Positions 15,831-20,796 of a DNA stretch of 64,000 bases are shown in pieces. Position numbers and translations under genes: made by a program. Each line of letters begins with the position of its first letter. The stretch's first letter is position 1. The notes beneath the pieces were generated by a model that ran no database searches, had not been told where the DNA came from, and was given only the letters and a program-made list of their open reading frames with translations. The DNA comes from Prochlorococcus sp. AG-388-A01. Lineage in GTDB: Bacteria; Cyanobacteriota; Cyanobacteriia; PCC-6307; Cyanobiaceae. The DNA is taken from assembly GCA_003279945.1 (NCBI GenBank), contig QCGK01000001.1, positions 326,213 to 390,212 of the forward strand, given 5' to 3'.

Positions 15831-16802
15831 ATGCGGATAATAAAGCAATCTGATAACTATTCCAAAGCAACATGGCTGAAAACCGATTTCCCAGCTCTTA
15901 TAATTGATGATTTCATAAGTATTCAAGATTGTGAAAAACTCATTCTTGATGGCGAGAATTTTATAAAATCTCAGGCAAAAAGCAATTCAGTAATTCATGG
16001 TGGAAGAGTTATGATTCCTTTTTCTTCAAATAAATTTAATGAGCTTGTAAAAGAAAGCAGGACTTGGGATAAATTTTCCAGAATATTTAGGAATAAATGC
16101 TTTAAATTTATTATGAATGAATTAAACAATATCCAAAACTTATCAGAGATTTCCAAATCTTCTATAGAAGAATTTAAACATACAGAATTAAAAAAAAAAG
16201 ATACTTTTAACATACTATCGAAATTTAATTTTGGAGATCTTGAAAAGAAATATAGTGCTTTATTAGAATATAAAATAGGTTCTATTCCACCTTATAAATT
16301 ATTATCCATATCACTTCTTAGAATTCTTGATACATATTTTAGAAGATTAATATCATTTAAAGATTATTTATTTAGGAAAAAGCCCCTAATACCACTGTTC
16401 GACTATAGCTTCTCAAGTAATGGTTACGGTAGAGAAATACATAGAGATTCTGATAACAGGTTAATAGTAGTGCTTTTATACTTAAATAATTTAGATAAAT
16501 ATACTTTAGGCGGAGATCTTGAAATTTATAATATCAAAAAAGAAAAAATTAAAGACAACAAATACCCCCCTCAACCTAACAAAAAAGATTGTGATCTGGA
16601 GTACATCATAAAACCAAAAAGAGGACGGTTGGTTATGTTTGTTAATCAATTTAATTCATATCATGGCGTATCCGAAATGATAAATGACACAAGAGGTAGA
16701 CATTTTATATATGGAGGTTTCACTTATCCAAGTTCAATATTTGTTAATAATAAAAGGCTTTTAAATACAAAATCAAAAACGGAAATGTTTTTATATAACT
16801 AA
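15831..16802 (+). CDS. 2-oxoglutarate/Fe(II)-dependent oxygenase (prolyl-4-hydroxylase-like)
   Basis: The C-terminal half is a P4H-type jelly roll. HRD at 204-206 supplies the first two iron ligands (GREIHRDSDNR), H278 in FNSYHGVSEM the third, and the basic residue after TRGR (about 288-290) should bind 2-oxoglutarate. LGGDLEIY matches the usual GGxLxhY strand. Residues about 85-185 form a helical, charged insertion I do not recognise. Such genes in marine cyanobacteria and phages often modify surface polymers or proteins; the substrate here is unknown. It borders the guaA-linked island, 60 bp from the outer repeat. Confidence 0.8.
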   Translation: MRIIKQSDNYSKATWLKTDFPALIIDDFISIQDCEKLILDGENFIKSQAKSNSVIHGGRVMIPFSSNKFNELVKESRTWDKFSRIFRNKCFKFIMNELNNIQNLSEISKSSIEEFKHTELKKKDTFNILSKFNFGDLEKKYSALLEYKIGSIPPYKLLSISLLRILDTYFRRLISFKDYLFRKKPLIPLFDYSFSSNGYGREIHRDSDNRLIVVLLYLNNLDKYTLGGDLEIYNIKKEKIKDNKYPPQPNKKDCDLEYIIKPKRGRLVMFVNQFNSYHGVSEMINDTRGRHFIYGGFTYPSSIFVNNKRLLNTKSKTEMFLYN

Positions 16803-16861: not shown

Positions 16862-16911
16862 TTATAACTGGATTCTTAAACTCCTTTTATTCCCACTCTA
16901 TAGTACCGAGA
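16862..16911. repeat. Outer copy of the guaA 3'-end direct repeat (putative att half)
   Basis: These 50 bp align without gaps to 19185-19234, about 82% identical by eye. On the minus strand the copy reads LGTIEWE-stop, matching the PGTIEWE-stop end of guaA, and similarity continues about 25 bp beyond the stop. It lies 2.3 kb downstream of guaA in the same orientation. A displaced gene 3' end in direct orientation is the usual scar of site-specific integration. No integrase gene remains. Confidence 0.65.
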
Positions 16912-16969: not shown

Positions 16970-16992
16970 TTTCCTGAGGGAAACCTTTTTTT
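16970..16992 (+). terminator. Weak hairpin with T-tract, possible Rho-independent terminator
   Basis: TTTCC and GGAAA can pair around a 4-base loop, followed by CC and seven T residues on the plus strand. The stem has only five base pairs. It lies downstream of the 2OG oxygenase and could end that transcript. Confidence 0.3.
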
Positions 16993-17099: not shown

Positions 17100-17417
17100 A
17101 TGTTGCGACTTCTTCCACTCCCGATTTTTATTTGCATTTATCTATTCTCTTGGTGGAGATGTAAAAAAAATATTATCGCTAGCGATAAGCAACTAAAACA
17201 ATGCATTGATTGGGCATATGTAAAGAATTTACCTCTCCCACCAAAACCTTCATTTATCGAGTTCTATATTGTTTATGTTTCTTCTTTTTTTAAATTTCCT
17301 TTTGGGATAATTGTTCAACAACTACCTTTCTCAAAAAAAGTAAGATACTACGAAAGAGAAATGAAATTAATATTTGATAAATGGAATTTAGAAAAAATTA
17401 AGAAAATAATTAACTAA
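17100..17417 (+). CDS. Hypothetical protein with an N-terminal membrane segment
   Basis: I do not recognise this protein. The 105-aa product begins with a hydrophobic stretch (LLPLPIFICIYLFSWW, about 3-18) that may anchor it in the membrane, and has a second aromatic hydrophobic stretch at about 58-75. The remainder is basic. It begins inside the guaA-linked island and is followed two bases after its stop by the truncated nuclease/phosphatase frame, so the two may once have been one operon. The ATG overlaps an upstream TAA (TAATG). No homology can be claimed. Confidence 0.5.
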   Translation: MLRLLPLPIFICIYLFSWWRCKKNIIASDKQLKQCIDWAYVKNLPLPPKPSFIEFYIVYVSSFFKFPFGIIVQQLPFSKKVRYYEREMKLIFDKWNLEKIKKIIN

Positions 17418-17418
17418 T

Positions 17419-17595
17419 TTGTCTAGGAAACCAAAAAAAGAATTGTTAAAAATATCTTGTTGGAATTCAGATTGGGCAACTCCTACATCTAAGAGAGGTA
17501 AGTTTTTTATTGATAAATTTGATTCTGATATTATATGCCTTACAGAGGGATATGAGAATCTGCTCCCAAAAGTTAGTTACAACCCCATTTATTGA
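17419..17595 (+). pseudogene. Truncated endonuclease/exonuclease/phosphatase (EEP) family gene
   Basis: Reading from a TTG at 17419 gives 58 codons containing LLKISCWNSDWATPTSKRG and then SDIICLTEGYENLLP. That is the N-terminal pattern of EEP proteins: a strand ending in the metal-site Asn (W-N), then D-I-[IV]-C-L-[TQ]-E with the catalytic Glu. A full member needs over 200 residues with His and Asp motifs near the end. This frame stops at 17595 just as it enters the tail of the opposite-strand TPR gene. It is absent from the ORF track because it is short. I infer a fragment cut by rearrangement. Confidence 0.6.
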
Positions 17596-18067
17596 AAAAC
17601 TCTTCTGCCGCTCCAAATCCTAAATCCATAGAAATTCGTAAATCCAAACAATAACCTTTCTTATCTCCTAAATAATTTTTAGTTGTTGCACGATCTAAAT
17701 AAAGTGCTCCAAAAGTAGGATCTAAATCTATCGCCTTATTTATAAATCCTAATGCTGCATAATGTTTTTTTAAATATCCATGAGACATAGAAAGCATTAA
17801 ATAAACACGAGATTTAGATTTTGATGATAAGTTGGGGTATTTTTTTAAAATTTTCTGAAATTTCAAAATTGCTTGTTTGTTATTACCTTTATCAAATATC
17901 TGAAGTGCATTTTCAAAATCGTAATTAAAAGAATCTGCTAATATTTTTTCTGAATATGAAATTATCATTACAGAACTTGATAAGACAATTAAATTTTTAA
18001 TAATCAAAGGTTGCCCAAAAGGAATTAAAGATAATATTGCGCCAATAAAAGCAGTTCGTTTTTTCAT
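17573..18067 (-). CDS. Exported TPR-repeat protein, short paralogue
   Basis: This 164-aa protein starts MKKRTAFIGAILSLIPFGQP, almost identical to the next gene. A long hydrophobic stretch and a probable cleavage site near ILADSFNYD suggest export. Two or three degenerate tetratricopeptide repeats follow (FENALQIFDKGNNKQAILKFQ; YAALGFINKAIDLDPTFGALYLDRATTKNYLGD). TPRs are protein-binding scaffolds; the partner is unknown. The C-terminus is Cys-containing (EEFFNKWGCN), like that of its paralogue. Its 3' end overlaps the truncated EEP frame. Confidence 0.75.
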   Translation of the reverse strand: MKKRTAFIGAILSLIPFGQPLIIKNLIVLSSSVMIISYSEKILADSFNYDFENALQIFDKGNNKQAILKFQKILKKYPNLSSKSKSRVYLMLSMSHGYLKKHYAALGFINKAIDLDPTFGALYLDRATTKNYLGDKKGYCLDLRISMDLGFGAAEEFFNKWGCN

Positions 18068-18137
18068 ATCAAAATTTACTTTTAATTAATATACCAACTG
18101 TAGAGAAAATGAACTTTATACGATTTCTCTTAAGAGA
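18021..18137 (-). repeat. Duplicated leader/promoter module, copy 1
   Basis: 117 bp, identical to 18949-19065 except for about five mismatches by eye. It covers the first 16 or so codons of the TPR gene and about 70 bp upstream. It contains a TATATT-like -10 and ends in the perfect 12-bp palindrome TCTCTTAAGAGA (18126-18137). Homology between the two genes falls sharply inside the coding region, so the leader and regulatory DNA are better conserved than the mature proteins. Confidence 0.85.
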
Positions 18138-18153
18138 CAGTCAATTAGGTCAA

Positions 18154-18233
18154 TGACAAACCCGTGACAAACTGAGGGGGTGGAATCCCAGTATTTCCGT
18201 TTCTATCTCATACGTGACAAACTGGTGACAAAC
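18154..18233. repeat. Paired 11-bp-period direct repeats (TGACAAAC family)
   Basis: TGACAAAC occurs at 18154 and 18165, and again at 18215 and 18226, so both pairs repeat with an exact 11-bp period, about one helical turn. The first pair begins 17 bp after the 12-bp palindrome. Comparable pairs lie beside copy 2. They could be binding sites for a regulator or recombinase arm sites. The rest of this 253-bp gap holds no supported gene. Confidence 0.6.
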
Positions 18234-18320: not shown

Positions 18321-18995
18321 TTAACAATTTTCCTTTATCCAACTTTTATTAGCATCCTCATCACCCAAAGAAAATGCTTTTTTTGCATCTGCACAAGCAC
18401 CTTTAATATCTCCAATATTCTCTTTAGATACACTTCTATTCGTATATGCTAATGCATATGCTGGATCAATTTCTATAGATTTTGTATAGTCAGATATCGC
18501 TCCATAATCATCTTTAATTTTGGATTTTGTATATCCACGGTTGTTATATGCTTTTGAATAATTTGGATCAATTTCTATAGATTTTGTATAGTCAGATATC
18601 GCTCCGTAATAATCTTTTAAATCACTTTTAGCATTGCCACGATTGTAATATGCATCTACATCATTTGGATTAATTTCTATCGCTTTTATATAGTCAGATA
18701 TCGCTCCATAATTATCTTTCAGTCTTCTTTTTGCATTACCACGATTGTAATAAGCACCCCCACTAGGATTAATTTCTATAGATTTTGTATAGTCAGATAT
18801 CGCTCCATAATTATCACCGTTTCTCCCCTTTTCCAAAGCACGATTAAAATAAAACGTATAAGTTTCTGCATTTACTTTTTCAGGTAAAGCAATCAAACCT
18901 GTCGATGATAAAACTACACCAGTTTTAATTAATAATGGATGCCCTAATGGAATTAAAGATAATATTGCGCCAATAAAAGCAGTTCGTTTTTTCAT
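18321..18995 (-). CDS. Exported TPR-repeat protein, long paralogue
   Basis: This 224-aa protein has the same MKKRTAFIGAILSLIP leader, a probable signal cleavage near KVNAETYTF, and four to five clean 34-residue TPRs of the type AYYNRGNAKSDLKDYYGAISDYTKSIEIDPN. From memory, proteins with this leader followed by GAISDYTKAIEINP repeats are common in picocyanobacterial genomes. The last repeat diverges (GDIKGACADAKKAFSLGDEDANKSW) and ends in Cys. It is probably a periplasmic or lumenal scaffold. The coding DNA is a 102-bp tandem repeat. Confidence 0.82.
   Translation of the reverse strand: MKKRTAFIGAILSLIPLGHPLLIKTGVVLSSTGLIALPEKVNAETYTFYFNRALEKGRNGDNYGAISDYTKSIEINPSGGAYYNRGNAKRRLKDNYGAISDYIKAIEINPNDVDAYYNRGNAKSDLKDYYGAISDYTKSIEIDPNYSKAYNNRGYTKSKIKDDYGAISDYTKSIEIDPAYALAYTNRSVSKENIGDIKGACADAKKAFSLGDEDANKSWIKENC
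18465..18810 (-). repeat. 102-bp tandem repeats encoding TPR units
   Basis: The phrase TAGTCAGATATCGCTCC recurs four times at about 102-bp spacing inside the long TPR gene, corresponding to the 34-aa GAISDY unit. The near-identity of the units suggests recent expansion or gene conversion. Confidence 0.8.
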
Positions 18996-19065
18996 ATCAA
19001 AATTTACTTTTAATTAATATACCAACTATGGAGAAAACAAACTTTCTACGATTTCTCTTAAGAGA
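18949..19065 (-). repeat. Duplicated leader/promoter module, copy 2
   Basis: Partner of 18021-18137. It contains the 5' coding end of the long TPR gene, the same TATATT-like element and the palindrome TCTCTTAAGAGA at 19054-19065. Immediately beyond the palindrome the two copies diverge in sequence but keep the same layout, with an 11-bp-period repeat pair starting 16-17 bp away. Confidence 0.85.
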
Positions 19066-19080: not shown

Positions 19081-19171
19081 ACGTAAAACTCACGTAAAAC
19101 CACCATATTTTTTATCGCCCAAATCCGCTGCTATGACATAACCACTATTTTGAATATATTTCACGTAAAAC
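19081..19171. repeat. Paired 11-bp-period direct repeats (ACGTAAAAC family)
   Basis: ACGTAAAAC occurs at 19081 and 19092 (11-bp period), with a third copy at 19163. The position relative to the palindrome matches the TGACAAAC pair beside copy 1, although the half-site sequence differs. It lies in the 214-bp gap between the long TPR gene and the guaA stop. Confidence 0.55.
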
Positions 19172-19184
19172 CGATAAATTCAAG

Positions 19185-19234
19185 TTATAACTGGGTTCTG
19201 AAAATCCGTTTATTCCCACTCAATAGTTCCAGGA
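19185..19234. repeat. Inner copy of the guaA 3'-end direct repeat (putative att half)
   Basis: This copy contains the real last eight codons of guaA and about 25 bp beyond the stop. It aligns with 16862-16911 in the same orientation. Together the copies bound 2.3 kb of accessory DNA. The guaA 3' end is a known integration site for genomic islands in other bacteria. Confidence 0.65.
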
Positions 19235-20796
19235 GGTTTGCTTGTAATATCATAAACAACTCTATTAACTGAAACTACTTCATTAACAATTCTATTTGCA
19301 ATCCTCTCCAAAATCTGAAAAGGAATTCTTGACCAATCCGCTGTCATACCATCTTCACTAGATACACAACGTAAAACTATTGGCCATGCATATGTCCTTT
19401 TATCACCCATAACCCCTACAGTTTTAACAGGCAATAATACTGCAAAAGCTTGCCAAATATCATTATAAAGACCTGCTTTTTTAATTTCATCTCTCACTAT
19501 CCAGTCTGCATCTCTTAAACAATCAAGTTTTTCATTATTCACTTCTCCTAAAATTCTTATAGCTAAACCTGGTCCTGGGAATGGATGCCTTTTTATAATT
19601 TCATCCGGCAAACCTAAAGCAGCTCCCAATTTTCTGACTTCATCCTTAAAAAGTTTTCTTAATGGCTCAACTAATTTAAATTGTAAATCTTTTGGTAATC
19701 CACCCACGTTATGATGACTCTTTATTTTTACAGCTATTCTTTCACCTGTCTTAGGATCAATATTAGTACCAGCACTCTCAATAACATCAGGATAAAGAGT
19801 GCCTTGAGCTAAGTAATGAAAAGGGCCTAGTCTATTACTTTCTTCTTCAAATACTCTAATAAATTCTTCACCAATAATTTTCCGTTTTTGTTCTGGATCG
19901 GTAATCCCTTTTAGTTTGGCAATAAACCTTTCCCTTGCATTAATATATTCAACCTTTATATGAAATTTCTTATCAAAAAAATTCATTAAAAATTCTGGTT
20001 CGCCTTTTCTCATAAAGCCTTGATCTATAAACATGCATGTAAGCTTATTTCCAATTGCTTTATTGAGAAGAAAAGCGAGAGTTGACGAATCAACTCCTCC
20101 TGACAAGGCAAGCAAAACTTTTTTATTGCCAACTCGCTCTCTTATCCTAGGAATAGTCTCCTCTATAAAGGTTTCGGTTGTCCAATCAGCAGCACAACTA
20201 GAAATTTTATAAACAAAATTTTTAATTAACGTCATCCCGAACTCTGAATGAATAACTTCAGGATGAAATTGAACGCCAAATAATTTTTTTCTATCATTTG
20301 CAATTGCTGCATGTAGTGTGTTCTCGGTATGCGCAATTTTATTAAATCCATCAGGCAAACAATTTATTGAATCGCCATGACTCATCCACATTATAGATTT
20401 ATCTGCTACATCAGAAAGAAGGGCAGATTCTTGATCTATGTTGATAGGTGCTCTACCATATTCAGCTTTTTTAGTTGCTGAAATAACAGATCCTCCAAGT
20501 TCTTTGACCATTAATTGCATCCCATAGCATATCCCTAAGATAGGAATTCCTAAATTAAAAATTTTTTCATCACATTTAGGAGCATTTTGTTCATATACAG
20601 AATTTGGGCCTCCACTCAAAATGATACCTTTAGGATTAATTTCATTGATATCCTCAATTGAAATACAATTACTTACCACAAGAGAAAAAACATTTGTTTC
20701 TCTAATTCTTCTTGCAATCAATTCAGAATATTGAGATCCGAAATCTAAAATTAATATTGAAGGATCTCGTTCTTTTTTTAAAGATGTTTGACTCAT
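19210..20796 (-). CDS. guaA: GMP synthase (glutamine-hydrolysing)
   Basis: GuaA converts XMP to GMP using glutamine. The N-terminal class I amidotransferase domain has the nucleophile motif GICYGMQL and the FHPEVIHSE His-Glu pair. The ATP-pyrophosphatase domain has the P-loop [10 protein letters not shown], and the C-terminal dimerisation domain ends in PPGTIEWE. The 528-aa length is normal. Its 3' end is one boundary of the island described at 16.8-19.2 kb, and the coding sequence is intact there. Confidence 0.98.

Follow-up and report, generated by a model that had tools for sequence, protein, structure and literature searches.

Two TPR genes lie downstream of guaA (19210-20796, minus strand) in the DNA analysed here, a Prochlorococcus stretch of 64,000 nucleotides called the window below, and each is preceded by a palindrome and short direct repeats. 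The question is what these repeats are and to what they belong. The exact palindrome TCTCTTAAGAGA occurs at 18126-18137 and 19054-19065 and nowhere else in the genome from which the window was taken. In copy 1, two TGACAAAC half-sites (18154-18161 and 18165-18172) with a period of 11 bp follow 16 bp past the palindrome, and a second phased pair is found at 18215-18222 and 18226-18233. In copy 2, two ACGTAAAAC half-sites with the same period (19081-19089 and 19092-19100) follow 15 bp past the palindrome, with a single extra half-site at 19163-19171. A scan of the window sequence thus bears out the earlier note on this DNA as regards the positions of palindromes and pairs, the additional sites farther out (a pair in copy 1, a single site in copy 2) and the retention of the layout despite different half-sites: the pairs of the two copies are unlike in sequence, not copies of one another, and stand in the same register. 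The two palindromes are not independent, because palindrome, promoter-like stretch and first TPR codons form a single duplicated block (82% identity over 195 nt).

Based on the comparisons below, we suggest, with a probability of nearly nine in ten, that these repeats belong to a series of small integrative cassettes, stacked in tandem at the 3′ end of guaA and since decayed, and that the phased pairs are arm-type sites of a tyrosine integrase. Read in this way, the window would contain about four cassettes. The left boundary of the array is the last 21 bp of guaA, GGAACTATTGAGTGGGAATAA (19210-19230, minus strand; ...GTIEWE and stop), the putative core and attL, which repeats at boundaries in many genomes. 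About 39 bp inside it lies arm A of cassette 1, a single GGTTTTACGTGA half-site (19161-19172, minus strand), followed by arm B, the 11-bp phased pair GTTTTACGTGAGTTTTACGT (19081-19101, minus strand). The palindrome at 19054-19065 (plus strand) comes next, as a candidate accessory site or former integrase-promoter operator, and then a promoter-like GTTGGTATATTAAT (19013-19026, minus strand), which is a consensus match only and is conserved in many TPR cassettes. The predicted cargo is a protein of 224 aa with a signal-peptide-like start and TPR repeats (18321-18995, minus strand; Pfam TPR_1, 4e-30).

The phased pair at 18215-18233 (minus strand) probably fuses the right-end arm of cassette 1 with the left-end arm A of cassette 2. 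One side of it aligns with right ends of other cassettes (loci L047, L056 and L160) and the other side with left ends (L164 and L050), and the alignments overlap in the pair only. Such a fusion would account for the missing core between the two TPR cassettes, and it reads as the reciprocal product of core-arm-core units of 139-148 bp present at other loci. Cassette 2 continues with arm B, the 11-bp phased pair GTTTGTCACGGGTTTGTCA (18154-18172, minus strand), the exact palindrome at 18126-18137 (plus strand) and a gene for a TPR-like protein of 164 aa (17573-18067, minus strand; TPR_2, 2.5e-05, below the curated cut-off), the N-terminus of which is as in cassette 1. Cassette 3 has apparently lost its left end. 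Its cargo is an ORF of 105 aa antisense to guaA (17100-17417, plus strand), with copies of 87-94% identity in the guaA arrays of L131, L144, L147, L149, L150, L160 and L166; its right-end arm is a single GTTTCCCTCA (16975-16984, minus strand), in a region (17053-16887) matching right ends of the GTTTCCCTC class (L149, L145, L157) at 83-84%. A second core, GGTACTATAGAGTGGGAATAA (16887-16907, minus strand), marks the boundary with cassette 4, whose probable cargo is a 2OG-Fe(II) oxygenase-like protein (15831-16802, plus strand). No right-end core of cassette 4 was recognised. The native flank resumes at about 15781, and in L179 this same flank follows the guaA tail without interruption; L176 and L178 look the same. 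Because of these empty sites, the 3.4 kb island of the window appears to be a precise insertion.

The N-terminal part of the first TPR protein has relatives in 16 of 200 genus genomes, and their upstream regions led to further arrays. They display the same layout with the half-site words GTTTGTCAC, GTTTTACGTG, GTTTCACATG and GTTACACGTG, and a copy of the guaA 3′ tail stands about 40 bp ahead of the first arm. In total, 62 guaA-region loci were examined and 80 core-to-core cassettes were parsed in 46 of them; these loci were picked partly for several cores or TPR genes, and per-locus fractions are not genus-wide frequencies. The tail of about 21 bp recurs at every cassette boundary, and the order is core, arm A at +39, arm B about 60-70 bp on, palindrome, gene, and arm C shortly before the next core. 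An 11-bp direct repeat begins 38/39 bp downstream of 54 of the 127 guaA-tail cores (0.23 expected), this being the commonest arm offset, and TCTCTNNAGAGA follows 55 of them (1.4 expected); far-end arms are mostly at -86/87 or -94/95. The earlier note had taken absence of the combined layout from the rest of the pangenome as the result that would speak against it, and the layout proved to be widespread across the genus, far beyond chance. By a count made by eye, roughly 90 of the 266 genus genomes contain the core pattern at least twice; a reversed control pattern gave few matches. Cassettes range from 139 bp to 8.6 kb with a median of 1.6 kb, nine units being shorter than 200 bp. The latter consist of a core, one arm pair and a core (139-148 bp; L047, L140, L151, L154, L159, L163, L168, L170 and L182) and are apparently what remains after the two arms of one cassette have recombined with each other.

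The conserved feature of the palindrome is not the perfect 12-mer. It is an inverted repeat of 5-2-5 organization with a variable centre (AT, TA, AC or GT), located mostly at +147 to +160 of the elements, including the integrase-bearing G119 (TCTCTATAGAGA). It is also present in elements with an antisense first gene, is found at one cassette end only and is missing from many elements. It is part of an attP′/integrase-promoter module and not of the TPR genes as such; its role may be that of an accessory site or of an operator for the integrase promoter. The exact 12-mer was discarded as a stand-alone marker, being found in other genus genomes mostly without this layout.

The first recombinase was a Phage_integrase match in G119, just after the guaA core, in an element of 8.3 kb with GTTTCCCGTG arms at both ends. 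Searches of the genus and of a collection of 84,980 species gave seven loci of this family, namely in six Prochlorococcus (AH-716-K03, AG-347-G20, AG-402-M15, AG-409-O23, AG-355-P18 and AG-321-E21) and in Synechococcus AG-679-A04, all of them single-cell assemblies with gaps. As expected of att sites of the lambda type, the recombinase is located just downstream of the guaA core in all seven loci (in AG-347-G20 two small ORFs intervene), a short core identical to the chromosomal target stands at both element ends, as the guaA tail and the empty site in L179 indicate, and repeated arm-type sites lie inside both ends at a fixed distance from the core. In most of the autonomous elements the integrase starts at +217 to +236 from the core, and the TPR genes of the window start at a similar distance. 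The protein matched PF00589 (1.3e-10) and a PHROG integrase (7.7e-25), and the nearest structures to its predicted fold were Tn1549 Int, lambda Int and Cre, with Xer structures also matched. In the structure model, of moderate quality (pLDDT 68), the N-terminus is predicted to form three strands and a helix, as would be expected of an arm-binding domain. Other recombinase loci fetched in the genus were without a guaA core, and apart from one chance repeat they also lacked arm pairs. Distant recombinases of about 505-525 aa, at 21-24% identity, occur in the genus as well.

The autonomous elements are 7-9 kb long. Int, Rep (PF23343 in the best cases) and a protein of about 316 aa are conserved in six of them, a helicase-like protein of 630-665 aa (DUF5906, PHROG primase) is encoded in three, and a small serine recombinase in five. 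The protein of about 316 aa has no assigned family (L186:13468-14418, L131:9287-10231, L130, L132, L058 and L187; 42-52% identity to the L186 copy). No conjugation genes were noticed in the integrase-bearing elements, and the right-end arms of the G021 element were not recognised. The words GTTTGTCAC and GTTTTACGT of the TPR cassettes in the window were on no sampled integrase element. Since the genome of the window (assembly 88% complete) yielded no recombinase of the guaA family, the array may be dead.

Of the 58 cassettes having a recognisable arm word at each end, 55 have matching words; the compound element of the window is one of the three mismatches. For the 34 scored elements with good pairs, the best 19-mer identity between own ends averaged 18.06 vs. 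14.08 for permuted ends (maximum of 5000 permutations, 15.8), and an identity of at least 17/19 was reached end to end by 31 of 34 cassettes vs. 0 of 17 comparisons across a shared core. The word classes were defined after viewing the data, whereas the permutation test and the shared-core contrast are independent of classes; it should be noted that related cassettes are not independent in these statistics and that the similarity of permuted pairs comes partly from recurring words and relatedness. In L047, the words of three cassettes in a row are GTTTCACGTG, GTTTGTCACG and GTTTTACGTG, each present at both ends of its cassette. In addition, the same 105-aa cargo gene stands under different arm words (window 17100-17417; L131, L144, L149, L150 and L166), which suggests that arms or cargo were swapped between classes by some route, perhaps homologous recombination.

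Based on the above, we propose the following scheme. It starts from what can be read directly: core repeats, fixed geometry, end-matched words, a recombinase beside the sites and a precise empty site. An intact cassette would have a guaA-tail core of about 21 bp at each boundary and phased 11-bp arm pairs inside both ends, the latter being where the N-terminal domain of a tyrosine recombinase specific for guaA would bind, as in lambda attP. In autonomous members the gene for this recombinase would lie just inside the core, at about 220 bp in most of them, with the palindrome in the promoter region ahead of it; they would also encode Rep, in many cases a helicase-like protein, and as a rule a serine recombinase. 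In most cassettes the integrase would have been lost or swapped for cargo, here the TPR genes, and such cassettes would presumably be mobilised in trans or through accretion with a helper related to them. Sharing one core, unrelated cassettes could stack, the differing arm words marking the recombinase lineage of each. Binding of Int to the arms, excision and mobilisation in trans are what we infer from these data. A broader version can be imagined, in which a genus-wide, integron-like cassette system uses conventional attP sites with at least nine arm-word classes and one guaA core, helpers of the matching class still move many integrase-less single-gene cassettes in trans between cells, and the arm word acts as an address tag; we put this forward tentatively and rather doubt it.

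The earlier note had left open whether the repeats are sites of a co-operative regulator or arm-type sites of a recombinase. Operators of, for example, an OmpR/PhoB-type response regulator controlling the TPR genes would agree with the 11-bp phasing, since direct half-sites of that type likewise repeat at about 10-11 bp, with the location upstream of the promoter-like TATATT, and with the start of the TPR genes at the integrase start position of autonomous elements. Regulation within an att region is also plausible in view of the tightly regulated prophage integrase gene treated in PMC2951348. However, the same pairs stand at the far 3′ cassette end, shortly ahead of the next core, and also in cassettes with an antisense first gene; the half-sites are not placed relative to the promoters of a regulon, and the word matches within a cassette and varies between neighbours, unlike a genome-wide regulator box. 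Such control of the TPR genes is thus highly improbable. The palindrome may nevertheless be a regulator site, or the arms may double as operator sites for the integrase promoter. The note's placement of the sites upstream of each island TPR gene holds for both window genes but is too narrow as a definition, since these sites are also found ahead of integrase genes, of restriction-modification genes and of genes facing the opposite way. Its recombinase option has strong support as regards the arms: the pairs are at both cassette ends, with one word per cassette, and in autonomous relatives they lie on either side of a tyrosine recombinase gene.

The same note had offered the palindrome as the crossover core with the phased pairs as its arms, and on paper a palindrome with flanking direct repeats does resemble an att site. 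We give this version almost no credence: the cassette boundaries are at the guaA tail, about 135-145 bp away, and the palindrome is at a single cassette end, has a variable centre and is missing from many elements. It could further be supposed that a TPR family beside guaA grew by ordinary tandem duplication and homologous recombination, the repeats being passive passengers. The 82% identity of the TPR heads in the window speaks for this, and so do the fused arm and the core-arm-core units, which suggest homologous exchange between arms. Against it, cassettes in a row contain unrelated genes and different arm words, the cores rebuild the guaA tail, the stretch before each internal core is not derived from guaA, and a recombinase stands just after guaA in seven genomes. 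As a full account, duplication is very unlikely; together with homologous recombination it could be the source of part of the array.

Returning to the integrative cassettes, the loss of the integrase can be followed in several of them. Integrase elements of the genus number four among the 80 parsed, with a fifth (L132) among the fetched loci outside the list. A recombinase match was absent in 75 of the 80 in a scan covering the guaA recombinase family only, and one more (L140) keeps only a remnant, 45 residues of the integrase N-terminus. L160 and L161 contain integrase stumps starting MGIKGRNTKI (MGIKGRNTKI*). The GTTTGTTGCG class includes one integrase element (G251) and eight integrase-less cassettes, which are 68-86% identical to it in the P′ region and 83-98% in the P arm. 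Descent from an integrase element is therefore visible for L140, L160, L161 and the G251-like cassettes, not for every cassette. A sense ORF starts at +215 to +240 inside the core in 24 of 71 cassettes (integrase elements included) vs. 3% at random anchors. Since this is also where the integrase starts in most autonomous elements, the cargo appears to have taken the place of the integrase behind its promoter.

Among the cargo are type I, IIG and III restriction-modification proteins, sulfotransferases, cytosine methylases, a methyltransferase, an HNH protein and TPR proteins. Cassettes of 4-8 kb in L145, L146, L147, L148, L152 and L157 encode type I, IIG or III restriction-modification or related defence-like proteins, so the guaA site doubles as a defence-gene hotspot in this genus. 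A class of about 7 kb with GTTTCACGTG right-end arms (L160:1637-5057, L161, L165 and L156) includes ORFs resembling, by eye, extra MreB-like and MurA-like cell-wall proteins, and a sulfotransferase-like protein (Pfam on a relative).

Among known systems, the kind appears to be given by CIMEs, ssrA islands and guaA IMEs, while tycheposons and the tRNA-Phe/tRNA-Cys element are the nearest in the same organisms. The review PMC5704250 covers CIMEs and accretion arrays of ICEs and IMEs. Like the CIMEs described there, the guaA cassettes keep attL and attR, lack integration genes of the guaA family and stand in tandem at a housekeeping-gene 3′ end beside integrase-bearing relatives; unlike them, they are often single-gene and shorter than 2.5 kb, have putative helpers with Rep, a helicase-like protein and a serine recombinase, and are labelled within the array by arm words. 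The Dehalococcoides ssrA islands (PMC3146451) are likewise tandem, with 20-bp repeats of the target-gene 3′ end, many without an integration module, and with niche genes, but they involve a CcrB-like integrase and tmRNA instead of a tyrosine recombinase, arm-type repeats and guaA. Integration at guaA by a tyrosine integrase is shared with the IMEs ATE-1, the IncP island and GIsul2, two of which are listed with Rep genes (PMC5704250). These have other hosts, and their description there includes no cassette arrays; the comparison is by description, not by integrase sequence.

The picocyanobacterial tRNA-Phe/tRNA-Cys element (PMC10187409) also occurs in Prochlorococcus and Synechococcus, with an unusual tyrosine integrase, a small serine recombinase nearby and variable cargo, but its target is a tRNA gene, and it is set apart here by description, not by sequence. 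Tycheposons (Hackl et al. 2023), which according to PMC10872708 use seven tRNA genes as sites and are 4-200 kb long, are similarly tyrosine-recombinase elements that remodel Prochlorococcus genomic islands. Unlike them, the guaA arrays have no adjoining tRNA and the target is guaA. In outline, mostly single-gene, integrase-less cassettes at one chromosomal site resemble integron arrays and CALINs (PMC11389934). Unlike integrons, the present sites resemble a double-stranded attP with arms at both ends, not attC, and have several specificities on one core. Boundaries made of a guaA-tail core with arm pairs look different from attC. In the literature searched, no description of guaA arrays in Prochlorococcus was found; the main tycheposon paper was outside this search and may mention them.

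Few photosynthetic organisms are as abundant as Prochlorococcus, and it is still an open question by which routes its streamlined genome gains and loses single genes. About a third of the species genomes examined appear to have the guaA site occupied, and small cassettes with restriction-modification, sulfotransferase and TPR genes stack there. A formerly unexplained repeat motif would become diagnostic for such cassettes, and the arm words a readable tag for the recombinase lineage behind each; therefore, mobility, helper dependence and cargo turnover could be tested from sequence data and one purified enzyme.

Other targets and carriers were also considered. A tRNA-targeted element was rejected, as neither the window nor the immediate surroundings of the arrays contain a tRNA gene; ARAGORN found none near the guaA integrases, the closest being a tRNA-Gly in L186 and L187, on the far side of guaA and about 4 kb upstream. 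Viral carriers were sought in several ways: no viral contig matched the GTTTTACGTG pair, GTTTGTCACG occurred in one contig without the core and was judged coincidental, IMG/VR matches to the guaA-tail pattern were without these arms, and viral contigs matched the integrase at 23% identity only. The helicase-like protein gave only remote matches (23-28%) to phages or plasmids. Finally, IMG/VR contigs (L105-L114) contain the exact CTATTGAGTGGGAATAA, some near a contig end, and are perhaps prophage edges at guaA in other bacteria.
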